Shown one piece after another: positions 13,585 to 19,274 of a stretch of DNA of 64,000 nucleotides. Numbering within the stretch: the first letter of the stretch is position 1; every line of letters begins with the position of its first letter. Source of the DNA: Prevotella sp. GTDB taxonomy: Bacteria; Bacteroidota; Bacteroidia; Bacteroidales; Bacteroidaceae. Under the pieces are notes generated by a model. It was not told the origin of the DNA. It made no database searches and saw only the letters and a list, made by a program, of their open reading frames with translations. The stretch lies in contig JAFUTI010000001.1 in assembly GCA_017471465.1 (NCBI GenBank), positions 62,001-126,000 of the forward strand, read 5' to 3'. Position numbers and translations under genes: made by a program.

Positions 13585-15966
13585 TTACTTAATGATTACT
13601 TTCTTACCGTTCACAACATACAGGCCCTTCTGTGGAGCAGCTACGCGCTGGCCTTGCAGATTGTAAACCTCATTATTCATTGTTTCATTATTCACTAGCG
13701 CAGCGCTAACGCCTGTGGTCTCACCGAAGAGTGAGTAGAAGCCGCGGGCTGCTGGAGGCTCTGGCAGATTGGCCAGGAGTATATAAGCCGTATTAGCGCC
13801 TACGGTGAAGGCATTGGTGTTCTTGTAGAAGCCGAGGCCGTCAGTTGCATCGTTCATCAGCACCCAGCCTGTTCCTGCTTCAATTGCTGTGGCAGAGGTC
13901 ACGCCCGTCAGGATATTGCTTGACACGCTGGTAGAGCTGCTTGCCACCACGGGGATGGTAACAGTCCCCTCGCTGCCCTTCAGCAGCAGGCCGGTATTGG
14001 CAGGCACGGTCGTCGTCACGGCTTCCGTAGTCAACACGCCGTCAGAACCGCCTGTCACGATATAGGCAGCGTCAAGGTTAGTAATCGCTGAAGAGAAGTC
14101 CAGCGCATACGGGCTGCAATACGTTGCCCAGCCGGCAGAGGAGATTGTCTTGGAGACGGTAGCCTCGCCAGTTTTATATATCAACACATAATCTATACCG
14201 TATGAACTATGGTTGCCTGCTGTACATTCCACCTTTATGTCCGTAGTTGTATAAAGCGTAAACTCTGAACTCGTTCCTTCACTCCATCCACCTGCGTTCT
14301 GAGTGAGTATAGTTTCATCACCAGCCGTGAAGGTGTAAGTCTGGCTAGCGGTAGCATACGAAGCAGTCATCAGGACGTATTTTCCAGGCTCCAATGAGGT
14401 GATGGTGGTAGCTGATGTAGGTCGACCGCCAGAACCATTGGATGCGCGAGTAACGATATAATTGTTGCTAACTAATGAAAGCCCACTGATATTCTCGGCC
14501 TCCTCCAAATACACGATATCTGTTATTGTTGCATGCTTAGTGTACTCCACTTCTACCTCTTGATTATCTGAACTCAGTGTAAAAGAATCGCCGAAATAGG
14601 AGCCTGTCGCCTTACTGTTCTTATAATAAAGTTCGTCATTGTAAAGCAAATAATGGGGGAAATAATAATTAACTGTTGCCCCGTTATCGTCATAGCCTGA
14701 AGCGAGAGTGGCAAGTTCTGTCTCCCCGCATACCGCTTTCACAGTATAGTTATACTGATCATAATCGCTGTAGGTGATAACCAATTGCGCTGCATTGTCA
14801 TTGTGATAGGCTCCGATGGCAATTCTCGCAGTCCAGTCGGCTATATCAATTCCGAAGTATACTGACTCGCCAGCATTCTTTGACAAAGACTGGATATAGG
14901 TTGTTATATCCACATCATAGTATGCTCCCTGTTTCGGAGCATAATTGGTATAACCGCTTCCTGCTATTGTCGCCAATATATTAGAGCTGAAACTATAGCG
15001 TTTATTATTTGCACCTCCATAACTGTAGACCGTGTGGTTTGAGTTATAGACTGTATTTGCGTTATTTGTTACAGAAGGAAATGCATCAAGTTCACGGATG
15101 TATATGTCACCTGATACATTGGCATTTGGTTTACTTGTTGGATAGATACGGAGAACTGCACTCTTTACCTTATTAACATCCCAATTGTTGTCAAGAACAA
15201 AAGACAATGCACCTGCACCGCCCCAAGTTTTATTTGAATTCAACCATATTGTTGACGAATTGCTAGAACCGTTGCCATCACCACTTGTATATTGCGCTGT
15301 TCCTACCATAGTTATTGAACTTGCACAAGAAATAGTTGCAGTTGATTCGGTTGCTCCCTCTTCCTTGAACGTGGCATCACTGATGCTGACGTATCCGCAG
15401 TCAACTGCAAATGTAAGGTAAAGGTCGGTTGTAGCATCATCGGAACCGTCGTAAGTATAGGTAAACGTCTGAGTAAAAGCAGCATCACCATTGGTCGGTG
15501 TGACATTGGCAATAGCGGTGATAGCCGTAGAATTACGTGTAATAGCCAAAGTAACCGTAGCACCGTTAATGGCGTTTACAATGCTACTTCCGGAATATGT
15601 GCCTACATAAGTGGGTGTCTGCGAACCTGCCGCTGTTCCGTAGGCAGCAGGTGCTGCACCGAATCCACGGCAAATCATCCAAGTGTTCCATAGGTTAGTC
15701 GAATAGGGTGAGTTTCCTACAAACAGATTCCATCCCCTATAACCTTCGTCAGTAGCATTGGTCGTGTAGAATGTGAAAGTGTACGTGCCATTACCAGAAA
15801 GGGTGTAAGTCTTTGACACCCAGGCATCTGTGTCAGCACCCCAAGTGGTAGCATTGTCACTTGTGCCGGCAAAAGTGCTCGAATTCGTTGCCCATGCACT
15901 CATGTTCCCCACACCCATTAAGGCCACGGCGAGCATCATTTTCATTAGTAATTGTTTTCTTTTCAT
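13585..15966 (-). CDS. Large secreted multi-domain protein with sorting-like C-terminus
   Basis: Exported protein of 793 residues starting with a signal peptide (MLAVALMGVGNMSAWA). Ser/Thr/Gly/Tyr-rich beta domains follow. The middle has a jelly-roll or DNRLRE-like stretch (SAVLRIYPTSKPN, later ESVYFGIDIADWTARIAIGA). A carbohydrate-binding-like block comes next (EAENISGL to YVLIYKTGEA). The end is NLQGQRVAAPQKGLYVVNGK, as in Bacteroidota secreted enzymes. No catalytic motif was found, so an adhesin or glycan-binding role is a guess. It is followed by the 51-aa gene. Its leader, 15967-16273, holds a strongly structured segment and a degenerate promoter in the direct repeat at 16274. Confidence 0.75.
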   Translation of the reverse strand: MKRKQLLMKMMLAVALMGVGNMSAWATNSSTFAGTSDNATTWGADTDAWVSKTYTLSGNGTYTFTFYTTNATDEGYRGWNLFVGNSPYSTNLWNTWMICRGFGAAPAAYGTAAGSQTPTYVGTYSGSSIVNAINGATVTLAITRNSTAITAIANVTPTNGDAAFTQTFTYTYDGSDDATTDLYLTFAVDCGYVSISDATFKEEGATESTATISCASSITMVGTAQYTSGDGNGSSNSSTIWLNSNKTWGGAGALSFVLDNNWDVNKVKSAVLRIYPTSKPNANVSGDIYIRELDAFPSVTNNANTVYNSNHTVYSYGGANNKRYSFSSNILATIAGSGYTNYAPKQGAYYDVDITTYIQSLSKNAGESVYFGIDIADWTARIAIGAYHNDNAAQLVITYSDYDQYNYTVKAVCGETELATLASGYDDNGATVNYYFPHYLLYNDELYYKNSKATGSYFGDSFTLSSDNQEVEVEYTKHATITDIVYLEEAENISGLSLVSNNYIVTRASNGSGGRPTSATTITSLEPGKYVLMTASYATASQTYTFTAGDETILTQNAGGWSEGTSSEFTLYTTTDIKVECTAGNHSSYGIDYVLIYKTGEATVSKTISSAGWATYCSPYALDFSSAITNLDAAYIVTGGSDGVLTTEAVTTTVPANTGLLLKGSEGTVTIPVVASSSTSVSSNILTGVTSATAIEAGTGWVLMNDATDGLGFYKNTNAFTVGANTAYILLANLPEPPAARGFYSLFGETTGVSAALVNNETMNNEVYNLQGQRVAAPQKGLYVVNGKKVIIK

Positions 15967-16070
15967 TTGTTAGTTGTTTTAGTTGTTTATAATGTAAAAA
16001 TCACGTCCGCTTCGTCAACTGGGAAGCCTTGCGTACATTATATAATAAAAATGCGCAGGCATTCACCATA

Positions 16071-16220
16071 CGCACCTCAGGTCTAGCACAACCTCTATCA
16101 CCTATGGGTATACCTGCGCTATAAGCGCAGCTACCTGGTGATAGTTATAGGGCAAGCCGCCAAACAACCGTCCTACGTTTTGCCCTTTTCCGCTTTTACG
16201 AGGTGCTAGTTCGAGGTGCG
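16071..16220 (-). ncRNA. Candidate structured leader RNA (multi-stem)
   Basis: Five perfect helices nest in 150 nt. P1 pairs CGCACCTC (16071-16078) with GAGGTGCG (16213-16220). P1b pairs CTAGCAC (16083-16089) with GTGCTAG (16203-16209). P2 pairs CTATCACC (16095-16102) with GGTGATAG (16137-16144). P3, inside P2, pairs CTGCGCT (16114-16120) with AGCGCAG (16124-16130). P4 pairs GGGCAA (16150-16155) with TTGCCC (16180-16185). The overall shape is a closing stem with a two-armed junction. It lies in the presumed 5' leader of the 793-aa gene, so a riboswitch or leader role is possible. It matches no riboswitch core I know. The strand is inferred from context. Confidence 0.6.
16073..16112. repeat. 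40-nt repeat, copy A
   Basis: This sequence recurs in direct orientation at 17867-17906 with 37 of 40 identical bases. In this copy it forms one side of the P1, P1b and P2 stems of the structured RNA candidate. Confidence 0.85.
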
Positions 16221-16273
16221 ATTGAGCAATTAATATGTCTTGTCATCTATGTGTCTCCACACAAACTCCGTCG

Positions 16274-16353
16274 GCAAGGTTACGAACTTTATTCCGAACG
16301 GCCAAAGAAAACGGCGGGAAATTTGCTTGGGTCTGCAAATTTCCCGCCGTAAG
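16274..16353 (-). repeat. 80-bp direct repeat, copy 1 (terminator-promoter unit)
   Basis: This copy is 71/80 identical to 17296-17375, same orientation, on the other side of the Rpn gene. It contains a perfect 16-bp inverted repeat (16311-16326 with 16335-16350, 8-nt loop). On the minus strand that hairpin runs into TTTTCTTT and lies 31 bp past the Rpn stop, so it should terminate that gene. Next comes TTTG, then 20 bases, then TAACCTTGC (16274-16282), a -7 box with one base off consensus, pointing at the 793-aa gene. Confidence 0.85.
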
Positions 16354-16380
16354 GGGGTATGAATATAATAAGTGTGGTCG

Positions 16381-17268
16381 CTATAGCTGTGCTATCTCGT
16401 CTATCGTCAGGCCGGTATATTTGGCTATGAGTTCCGATGCCATACCGTCGCCCTTCATCTTAAGTGCAGCTTCAGCCCGACCCTCAGCCCGACCTCTGTT
16501 CAGTGCCGACTTCATCGTGCTGTAATAGTCCCAGTAGTTCTTCACGCTGGCCTCATACTCCCGCCGTTCAGCAGGCGTATATTGCGCTATCTCAGCCTGC
16601 TCAAACAGCTTCTTGAAGATGCGGTCCTGCAGGGCCTTCGGACGCTCCAGCAGGCGACCGAGGTTGCGAAGCACGAACATCCACTTGTCGAACATCGTCA
16701 CCAACTCGTCCTCCGTCTTGTTGAACTTCGGCATCTCCAGGTATATTAGCGTCAGCTTGTCGTAGAACACGTGGTTGTCGTCGACATCCTTCAGCTTCAC
16801 CTCATGCTTATAACTGTCGGCAGGATATTCGTTGTCGGGAAACGTGAAGTTGAGCACACCGATGGTGTACACGTCTTCCAGCTGATAGTCCCAATGCTTA
16901 GCCTTGGGAGTCTGCTCGCGGATGGCGAAGGTGGAATAGTAGAGGCTGCGGTCCTTGAAGAAATCCTGATTGGCACGCTGCATCTCCACAATGAAGCGGC
17001 CGCCCTCCTTGGTCTTGCAGTAGACATCGAACACGGCACGGCGGTCGCCATAACCGTCGCCCAGATGTTCGCTGTTCAGATACTGCACGTCCTCGATCAC
17101 CTTGCCGCTGCCGCTAAACAGGGCGTTGAGGAAACTGATGAGCAGGTCTTTGTTCATCTCAGTGCCAAACAGCTTCTTGAAGCCGAAGTCGGTATAGGGG
17201 TTGATGTACCGCTCCTGCGGTTCCAGCAGCTCCGTGCCGTACGTGTTATCGTTCTTTTCGTCTGCCAT
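16381..17268 (-). CDS. Rpn-type PD-(D/E)XK nuclease family protein ('transposase')
   Basis: Member of the PD-(D/E)XK family linked to RecA-independent recombination (RpnA-E of E. coli) and widely labelled nuclease-family transposase in Bacteroidales. The 295 residues begin ERYINPYTDFGFKKLFG (about 20-36). Catalytic candidates are Asp81 (FDVYCKT) and Glu95/Gln97 (RFIVEMQ). The tail has RGRAEGRAEAALKMKGDG and a small helical end, ELIAKYTGLTIDEIAQL. I prefer the ATG at 17268; another at 17280 lies only about 9 nt from the expected transcription start. It is flanked by 80-bp direct repeats supplying its promoter and terminator. Confidence 0.88.
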   Translation of the reverse strand: MADEKNDNTYGTELLEPQERYINPYTDFGFKKLFGTEMNKDLLISFLNALFSGSGKVIEDVQYLNSEHLGDGYGDRRAVFDVYCKTKEGGRFIVEMQRANQDFFKDRSLYYSTFAIREQTPKAKHWDYQLEDVYTIGVLNFTFPDNEYPADSYKHEVKLKDVDDNHVFYDKLTLIYLEMPKFNKTEDELVTMFDKWMFVLRNLGRLLERPKALQDRIFKKLFEQAEIAQYTPAERREYEASVKNYWDYYSTMKSALNRGRAEGRAEAALKMKGDGMASELIAKYTGLTIDEIAQL

Positions 17269-17295
17269 CTTATAAACCATATGATATCATTAGCC

Positions 17296-17375
17296 GCAAA
17301 GTTACGAACTTTATTCCGAACGGACAAAGAAAACGGCGGGAAAATTGCCGTGACGTGCAAATTTCCCGCCGTAAG
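17296..17375 (-). repeat. 80-bp direct repeat, copy 2, with Rpn-gene promoter
   Basis: This is the counterpart of 16274-16353. The hairpin arms 17333-17348 and 17357-17372 pair at 15 of 16 positions with an 8-nt loop of different sequence. On the minus strand the T-tract contains TTTG, which is followed after exactly 20 bases by the consensus TAACTTTGC (17296-17304). The Rpn gene starts just beyond. Confidence 0.88.
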
Positions 17376-17648: not shown

Positions 17649-17711
17649 ACGAATTTTTCGCGGCGCTTTACAATTTTTTCGCGGCGCTTTACGAATTTTT
17701 CGCGACGCTAT
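17649..17711. repeat. Three tandem 21-nt units
   Basis: The units at 17649-17669, 17670-17690 and 17691-17711 share ACGAATTTTTCGCGGCGCTTT with one to four changes each. There are no spacers between them, and no frame across them has a usable start. Confidence 0.85.
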
Positions 17712-17866: not shown

Positions 17867-17906
17867 CACCTCAGGTTTAGGACAACCTCTATCACCTATG
17901 GATATA
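17867..17906. repeat. 40-nt repeat, copy B
   Basis: It is 37/40 identical and in direct orientation to 16073-16112. The partner strands that fold copy A into a multi-stem structure are not found here, so this looks like a fragment of the same element. Confidence 0.85.
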
Positions 17907-17945: not shown

Positions 17946-19274
17946 ATGAAGCGCATATTTCTATACCTTATTATAAATATAGGGATTTTCACGGCCTGCT
18001 CCGATGACGACTCGTTCACGACGAGCGGGAATGACCTGCTGACGTTCTCGGTGGACACGGTGAAGATGGATACCGTCTTCTCGAACGTCGGCTCCAGGAC
18101 TTACTCTTTCTGGGTTCATAACCACACTGGCGACGGCATACGCATTGGGACCGTGAGGCTGCGTAACGGCAACCAGACGGGATTCCGCGTTAATGTCGAC
18201 GGTACGTATCTGGACAATACGCTGGGGTCGGTAGCCAACGACTTTGAGGTGCGCGGAGGCGACAGCATCTGCGTGTTTGTGGAGCTGACGGCCAGGGAAA
18301 ACAATGCCCTTCAGCCGCAGTTGGTGGAGGACGACCTCGTGTTCAGTTTGGAGAGTGGGGTGGAGCAGCGCGTCAACCTGCGGAGCTATGCCTGGGACGC
18401 TATCAGCCTGAAAGACTTCGAGATAGACAAGGACACGCTGATAGAGACGGAGAAACCCATCGTGGTGTATGGCGACGGTATCAAAGTGGACAGCGGCGCC
18501 GTGCTGACGTTGCGCAACACGACGCTCTATTTCCACGACGGAGCAGGGCTGACGGTACGCGGCACACTCAACACGGACCACGTCGTCATGCGTGGCGACA
18601 GGCTTGACCACATGTTCGACTACCTGCCTTACGACCGCGTCAGCGGACAGTGGCGCGGCGTCAGCTTCGAAGGTCCATCGAAGGACAACCAGTTGACTGA
18701 TACGGAGATCAGAAACGCGATGACAGCGGTGGCGCTCGACTCGGCAGCCATCGACACGACGGCACAGCGGCTGACGATGATACGCTGCGTGGTGCACAAT
18801 GCCAAGGGCGACGGCGTCAGCGTCAGCAACAGCCATATCGGCCTCTACTACTGCCAGCTGACCAACACGCTGGGCAACTGTCTGTCACTGAAAGGGGGGA
18901 TTGCCGACATCGACCATTGCACGCTGGCACAGTTCTACCCCTTCACGGCCAGCCGCGGCGCTGCACTCAGCTTCAACGACAGCCACGACCTGTGGCTGAT
19001 GTGCAGCAACTCGATTGTGACGGGCTATACCGACGACGTGGTGATGGGCAGCCACAACGACACGGCGCGGGTGTTTGTCTACAGGTTTGAAGACTGCCTG
19101 CTACGTACACCGGCTGTTGCCGACGACACGGTCAGCTTCAAACGGATACAATGGGAGACGGCGCAGGACAGCATACAGGGGAAGAAGCACTTCGTCACAA
19201 TCGACGAGCGTAACCTCATCTACGACTTCCACCTCGACTCGCTGTCGACGGCGCAAGGGAAGGGCTGTTACTGA
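17946..19274 (+). CDS. Beta-helix lipoprotein, secreted
   Basis: Predicted surface or periplasmic lipoprotein of 442 residues. The signal peptide ends in IFTACSDDD (lipobox Cys about 18). The first third is an immunoglobulin-like module (TVFSNVGSRTYSFWVHNHTG). The rest is a right-handed parallel beta-helix of the kind seen in NosD/pectate-lyase-like folds, with repeated NTTLYFHDGAGLTVRGTL and GDGVSVSNSHIGLYYCQLTN rungs. No catalytic residues are obvious. The family is common in Bacteroides and Prevotella without assigned function. Its end overlaps the convergent cdd gene by 7 nt. No clear -7 box was found upstream. Confidence 0.78.
   Translation: MKRIFLYLIINIGIFTACSDDDSFTTSGNDLLTFSVDTVKMDTVFSNVGSRTYSFWVHNHTGDGIRIGTVRLRNGNQTGFRVNVDGTYLDNTLGSVANDFEVRGGDSICVFVELTARENNALQPQLVEDDLVFSLESGVEQRVNLRSYAWDAISLKDFEIDKDTLIETEKPIVVYGDGIKVDSGAVLTLRNTTLYFHDGAGLTVRGTLNTDHVVMRGDRLDHMFDYLPYDRVSGQWRGVSFEGPSKDNQLTDTEIRNAMTAVALDSAAIDTTAQRLTMIRCVVHNAKGDGVSVSNSHIGLYYCQLTNTLGNCLSLKGGIADIDHCTLAQFYPFTASRGAALSFNDSHDLWLMCSNSIVTGYTDDVVMGSHNDTARVFVYRFEDCLLRTPAVADDTVSFKRIQWETAQDSIQGKKHFVTIDERNLIYDFHLDSLSTAQGKGCY

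Follow-up and report, generated by a model that had tools for sequence, protein, structure and literature searches.

What would a nest of perfect helices be doing just ahead of a gene for a secreted protein? This question is raised by positions 16071 to 16220 of the window (the whole stretch of 64,000 nt of Prevotella sp. DNA analyzed here), where the first-pass annotation placed a multi-stem RNA candidate that was suggested, from its position, to be a regulatory leader or, alternatively, a mobile or independent RNA. The best explanation, which we consider probable while leaving considerable room for doubt, is that the 793-aa gene has its 5' leader here, on the minus strand, as one member of a family of attenuating leader RNAs in Bacteroidales. 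All five helices originally noted are found again: P1 (16071-16078/16213-16220, 8 bp), P1b (16083-16089/16203-16209, 7 bp), P2 (16095-16102/16137-16144, 8 bp), P3 (16114-16120/16124-16130, 7 bp), and P4 (16150-16155/16180-16185, 6 bp). On either strand the 150 nt also fold far better than shuffled controls, with a minimum free energy of -64.0 kcal/mol on the plus strand (z -6.15) and -69.8 kcal/mol on the minus strand (z -6.63), and none of 200 shuffles is as good in either case. A longer minus-strand stretch, 16262-16045, folds with a z of -4.92.

Judging from base-pair types, we take the minus strand, which reads into the 793-aa gene, to be the RNA strand, because G-U pairs outnumber A-C mismatches (146 vs 27 cells in alignment A5, with the window row omitted, and 173 vs 22 in alignment A6). 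These counts, together with the orientation of the gene, led us to reject the plus strand. The helices of the original candidate stand, but its borders do not: in the first five copies aligned, conserved blocks extend past them, and the full unit is wider, running from about 16306 at its promoter-like end to about 16044 at a U-tract. All features given below for this unit lie on the minus strand. Upstream are a -33-like box (16299-16306, with TTTGG at 16306-16302) and a -7-like box, TAACCTTG (16282-16275), which is one base off TAnnTTTG, the Bacteroidetes -7 consensus (a paper on promoters by Bayley and others is cited in PMC2864571). An exact TAnnTTTG is found 40 to 75 nt before P1 (-75 to -40) in 129 of 162 copies, and TTG mostly lies 22 to 24 nt upstream of the -7 box in homologues. 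Near the expected 5' end is a small hairpin, P0 (16250-16263); similar hairpins were seen by eye, uncounted, in homologues.

Homologues of the element are numerous. A DNA search found one more full-length relative in the same genome (C36) and others in G034, G023, and G027. A model built from five sequences with a variable spacer excised (R1) was then run with eight candidates scored per genome, and at E 0.01 it matched 188 of 398 congeneric genomes, with up to eight matches in a genome. Owing to this construction, R1 placed the window copy wrongly over its 5' half in alignment A5; a second model built from 71 copies (R2) aligned that copy over its whole length. A 26-position pattern for the tail of the element, applied to named genomes, gave 94 stretches, 80 of which were made into loci. 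R1 recognized every one of the 80, with E 2.5e-9 or better in 79; in L157 the match was confined to a 47-nt piece (E 0.0067). Named carriers of the tail pattern include metagenome-assembled Prevotella and Prevotellaceae genomes, many from ruminants, together with Xylanibacter brevis ATCC 19188, Phocaeicola vulgatus ATCC 8482, and Parabacteroides distasonis; metagenome-assembled carriers were also found in Alistipes, Paludibacteraceae, and Muribaculaceae. With R2, the genome of the window has six copies at E below 1e-12, plus two matches at chance level. The same model matched 47 of 151 genomes in a sample of the family and 38 of 393 in a sample of the order, where 24 of the 206 genera have matches; in about half of the 24 they are weak, above E 1e-10, and may represent a distant subclass. 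In a phylum sample of 296 genomes, which includes a few of the own family and doubles as a rough control for false matches, only two were matched, namely the own genome and one weak hit in the same class (E 5.2e-5).

Several individual loci vary the theme. Seven weaker matches of 36 to 49 bits (L222, L224, L228, L230, L232, L233, and L234) have the same layout with another core, GAAA...ATTTC, most of them with a GCGTT...GCTT stretch upstream, and look like a distant subclass. In one of these, L232, a sub-threshold match to the DUF805b RNA (1683-1719; 32.1 bits against a cut-off of 35.6) lies shortly after the leader element. Locus L220 contains tandem elements at 1354-1487 and 1501-1634 on the minus strand, separated by 13 nt; both show a T1-like stem (described below) and a U-tract by eye, and the second scores only 28 bits. 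A copy on an IMG/VR contig (L255, 13250-13560) looks the same as that of Parabacteroides distasonis (L168) and precedes a lipoprotein ORF that matches its counterpart there in length and start.

Comparison of these copies speaks strongly for a conserved fold. In the first five, once the spacer is taken out, 98.7% of cells are paired over 31 pairs, and two-sided changes occur in 16 of these, a result that none of 500 shuffles reaches; slid structures are only 23 to 45% paired. Among 71 copies (69 distinct, window row retained), 95.7% of stem cells are paired, compared with 69.1% in shuffles and 32 to 49% in slid controls. Two-sided cells number 551 vs 167.7 in shuffles, and the stems are kept with compensation at 28 of 31 pairs vs 22.0 (a value seen in 0 of 500 shuffles). 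Of the five measures used, four lie beyond all 500 shuffles, and the fifth, further pair types, is equaled or passed in 11. Each of P1, P1b, P2, and P3 lies within 91.6 to 99.2% paired over the 69 distinct rows. Read on the minus strand, where the higher-numbered strand of each helix is the 5' one, P1 has two-sided changes in 8 of 8 pairs (69 distinct rows), P1b in 6 of 7, P2 in 7 of 7 modelled pairs, and the P3 arm (5' strand CTGCGC, 3' strand GCGCAG) in 7 of 9 modelled pairs. In alignment A7, whose 55 copies reach other families, 30 of 31 pairs are two-sided. Alignments A5 to A7 were fitted to the model and are thus biased towards P1-P3. When 22 of the 80 pattern loci are aligned by MAFFT, blind to structure, RNAalifold recovers P1, P1b, and P2, with 21 of 30 pairs two-sided; P3 and T1 were not recovered from this alignment, and a small tail hairpin was found instead. 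We regard it as practically certain that the copies form a true structured RNA family.

The conserved part goes beyond these stems. The unpaired bases CGAA, CACCUCG, and CCCAUAG are conserved, as are an upstream TTGCTC (16224-16229 in the window) and an internal GAGCAA (GGGCAA at 16180-16185 in the window, where it is also one strand of P4). The two change together in several copies, and matched variants found by eye include TAGCTC/GAGCTA, AACTC/GAGTT, GGCTC/GAGCC, and TGTTC/GAACA. This co-variation supports a pseudoknot between the predicted partners. Swapping partners between copies lowers the share of helices of at least 6 only from 94% to 82%, a weak test since the motif is conserved. As for P4, the helix is present in the window, but it belongs to a long extra arm (16150-16185) that is not family-wide: of the other four copies first compared, L007 has it and L002, L006, and L008 lack it. 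The conserved sensor-like fold shown by these comparisons consists of P1, P1b, P2, and P3 plus the pseudoknot.

The gene that follows is encoded on the same strand (13585-15966) and starts with a signal-like sequence; the leader ends about 80 nt before its ATG. Its protein of 793 aa, scanned separately, matched no Pfam family at E 0.01. The original placement of the element in the leader of this secreted-protein gene, and the regulatory role suggested by that position, are both favored by the covariation, the promoter boxes, and the finding that 150 of 167 distinct copies have a same-strand ORF (at least 60 aa) whose start lies no more than 300 nt downstream. This set was obtained by dropping identical elements, L037, L199, and the second L220 match; 6 of the 17 copies with no downstream ORF have less than 300 nt of sequence there. 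By position, the element is very likely a cis-acting leader RNA. Downstream products are predicted to be exported in 124 of 141 cases, compared with 155 of 526 control ORFs, by a crude rule based on hydrophobicity and a lipobox; the controls had to encode 150 aa or more and to come from sources no shorter than 5000 bases. Among products of at least 150 aa the figure is 105 of 117, and among divergent upstream ORFs it is 8 of 66. The typical copy has promoter-like boxes on its upstream side and, downstream, a gene on the same strand, usually for a predicted exported protein.

These products are otherwise diverse. In the protein set that was scanned (A8, 110 of the 141 downstream proteins), 51 Pfam families are spread over the 110 proteins, the largest, LRR_5, being found in 7, and regulation of a single protein family was therefore rejected. 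Examples include BspA-type leucine-rich repeats (7 of 110), Ig-like domains, T9SS tails, and a subtilase. One EcoRI-methylase-like and one DpnI-like protein in A8 are likewise encoded after the leader, and export is therefore not universal among the products. Among the 25 Pfam and 25 NCBIfam families listed, none for transport or biosynthesis stands out.

How could such a leader act on its gene? A possible answer lies in its 3' part, where a second conserved pairing shares the P3 3' strand and leads into a U-tract. In this fold, the tail sequence CCTGCGC (16053-16059) pairs with the P3 3' strand (GCGCAG, 16114-16120) to form T1, whose long loop encloses T2 (CCATA, 16103-16107, with TATGG, 16066-16070) and T3 (AGGY/RCCU). 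The T3 strands in the window, AGGT (16091-16094) and ACCT (16079-16082), flank the 3' strand of P1b. T1, a GC-rich stem, is the strong part: alone it is paired in 95.7% of cells in A5, with 5 of 8 pairs two-sided. T3 is weak, one of its pairs being unpaired in 23 of 69 rows of A5, and it is 73.2% paired in A7. Taken together, T1-T3 are 92.3% paired vs 89.3% in shuffles in A5, with 10 of 17 pairs two-sided, and 87.0% vs 79.0% in A7, with 15 of 17; both gains in pairing are small, and in each alignment all five measures lie beyond every one of 500 shuffles. At least five T are found in the 8 nt after the T1 stem (16044-16052 is the U-tract of the window) in 147 of 152 copies, compared with 7 of 152 at 12 to 20 nt further on, a count that is partly built in because the model and the tail pattern contain T columns. 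For this count, 11 of 163 copies lacking a recognizable stem end were dropped. A simple terminator scan of 15900-16450, limited to loops of 3 to 8 nt, did not report T1 and gave only a hairpin at 16311-16350. Many copies also have a small tail hairpin, GGY-GNAN-RYC (about 16053-16070 in the window), that would compete with T1; it covaries at one pair in the MAFFT alignment (CG in 15, UA in 6, and UG in 1 of 22).

A transcription attenuator is made of such parts: a sensor stem, a terminator-like fold on a shared strand, and a U-tract. Since T1 shares a strand with the sensor and both folds covary, we infer that T1 could act as the expression platform, and transcription attenuation through T1 is a likely mechanism. 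RNA polymerase would start some 35 to 50 nt upstream of P1, and the sensor would fold first. While it stays folded, the GCGCAG strand would be kept in P3 and transcription would read through into the gene; were the sensor unformed or destabilised, T1-T3 would form an intrinsic terminator and the message would stop about 80 nt before the ATG. The energies do not support a simple equilibrium switch. The P3 fold is better than the T1 fold by a mean of 13.8 kcal/mol (n=70, window row omitted; nested folding, with pseudoknot, ligand, and kinetics outside the calculation), and the T1 fold is better in only 1 of 70 copies, fewer than three T1 pairs being all that could be forced in 6 of 70. With the sensor fold some 14 kcal/mol ahead, the terminator would hardly form at equilibrium unless the sensor were disfavored. 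A kinetic or factor-driven switch, or a role of T1 other than termination, is possible.

If the leader attenuates, what would it sense? A ligand-binding riboswitch is a tentative candidate. Unrelated genes share the leader, and a genome can hold up to eight copies, so the signal is probably a global one (a metabolite, second messenger, or ion) and not a pathway end product. A new orphan riboswitch class of Bacteroidales, in which one aptamer for one small signal has been copied before unrelated genes, is an equally tentative proposal. Alternatively, the same attenuator could be switched by an RNA-binding protein or a small RNA and not by direct binding of a small molecule. The apparent regulon of diverse exported proteins, with no metabolic theme in the families listed, would suit such a switch, and the sensor is so much more stable than the terminator that an active partner could be needed. 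However, the sensor, with its pseudoknot, junction, and conserved loops, seems more elaborate than most protein sites, and we consider this alternative rather unlikely.

The tail can also be read as no terminator at all. A leader that modifies the polymerase or stabilises the mRNA, like the EAR or put RNAs, would aid downstream transcription or translation; processive antitermination of the EAR/put kind would suppress distal terminators. The very stable fold would agree with this, as would the long surface proteins encoded by some of the downstream genes, but the U-tract (147 of 152) and the covarying T1 would then be left unexplained, making this an improbable reading.

More improbable still is an independent small RNA with its end at T1 that lies before genes by chance. 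Such an RNA would be expected to have its own promoter-like box and terminator-like end, as this element does, but the copies are oriented towards genes. Where 300 nt are available on both sides (157 copies, after 10 of the 167 with less on a side were left out), a same-strand ORF lies downstream in 146 of 157 vs a divergent ORF upstream in 66 of 157, and raising the limit to 150 aa leaves 120 and 31 of 157. The ORF starts 20 to 110 nt after the tail in 127 of 167 copies. Furthermore, only 6 of 163 copies have TAnnTTTG in the 70 nt that follow the tail (the promoter-box counts use the 167-copy set minus L157, leaving 163).

A mobile DNA hairpin of the REP, MITE, or attC-like kind, to which the several copies per genome, a fragment 1.8 kb away, and an adjoining PDDEXK_2 gene might point, can be practically dismissed, since the copies are oriented towards genes, have diverged yet remain paired, and show in their G-U vs A-C asymmetry (146 vs 27) a strand preference contrary to DNA stems. 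The partial recurrence that had suggested a mobile or independent RNA is real (17867-17906 on the minus strand, 40 nt, 93% identity), but it is a fragment only, holding the 3' strands of P2 and P1b and part of P1, with no 5' half or tail. R2 has no match there, and the fragment is probably a decayed copy. Directly after it comes a beta-helix gene on the plus strand (at 17946).

Other repeats are found in this neighborhood. An 80-nt direct repeat (89%; 16274-16353 and 17296-17375) flanks the PDDEXK_2 gene (16381-17280, minus strand), with one copy preceding that gene and the other preceding the leader RNA. Both copies contain an inverted repeat next to promoter-like boxes, and 16311-16350 is terminator-like on the minus strand. 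Three tandem 21-nt repeats of the ACGAATTTTTCGCGGCGCTTT type (17649-17711) lie in the gap before the plus-strand gene. PDDEXK_2 was considered as an obligate partner, being found beside the window copy by Pfam and, as a similar ORF by eye, in L007; this was ruled against, as none was seen by eye in L002, L006, and L008, loci of about 3 kb.

The first-pass annotation recognized no known riboswitch core, and Rfam 15 agrees. At gathering level the whole window gives only a tRNA elsewhere; 15960-16300 searched up to E 10 gives only snoR143 at 9.9; and among 12 loci searched up to E 1 and 14 up to E 5, no match overlaps the element. Group II introns, retrons, and bridge or omega RNAs were rejected on the lack of an Rfam match to the element, their partner proteins having been sought downstream only. 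Transcription-terminating riboswitches in general resemble the leader in their complex 5' fold with a pseudoknot, in an alternative terminator-like fold that shares a strand and ends in a U-tract, and in having copies before several genes of one genome. In contrast to these, the element has no Rfam match, and its downstream genes are diverse and mostly for exported proteins.

Candidate structured RNAs from the same order or phylum have been described, including Bacteroidales-1, Bacteroides-1, and Bacteroid-trp (Rfam RF01692-RF01694), the last of which is marked as likely cis-regulatory in a table of PMC2864571. They differ from the leader as far as Rfam goes, no model there matching it; this comparison covers the three numbered families and excludes Bacteroides-2 and GUCCY-hairpin, for which the same table gives no Rfam number (PMC2864571). 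Fremin and Bhatt (2021) report structured-RNA candidates from the human microbiome, some of them from Bacteroidetes and 508 directly upstream of genes, and the leader family may be among the 3161 candidates in that work (PMC8040213). In B. thetaiotaomicron, 13.5% of mRNAs are reported to have leaders longer than 100 nt, about 2% of which have a predicted riboswitch (PMC7366714), and there is therefore room for such an element. The literature search found no paper describing this leader family in the texts available, supplementary tables aside, and an earlier unnamed listing in such tables is possible. The attenuating leader is possibly new, and it might represent an orphan riboswitch class.

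Attenuation by leaders is in itself well established. What this family adds is a leader with no Rfam 15 model that marks mostly unassigned exported proteins. If the riboswitch reading is true, the signal would set which exported and surface proteins are made by gut and rumen Prevotella and their relatives, and the tandem pair of L220 would be a two-input version. The phylum has few worked-out examples of riboregulation. Knowing what the leader senses would open a direct way into the surface remodeling of these gut bacteria and provide a clean model of riboregulation for the phylum.
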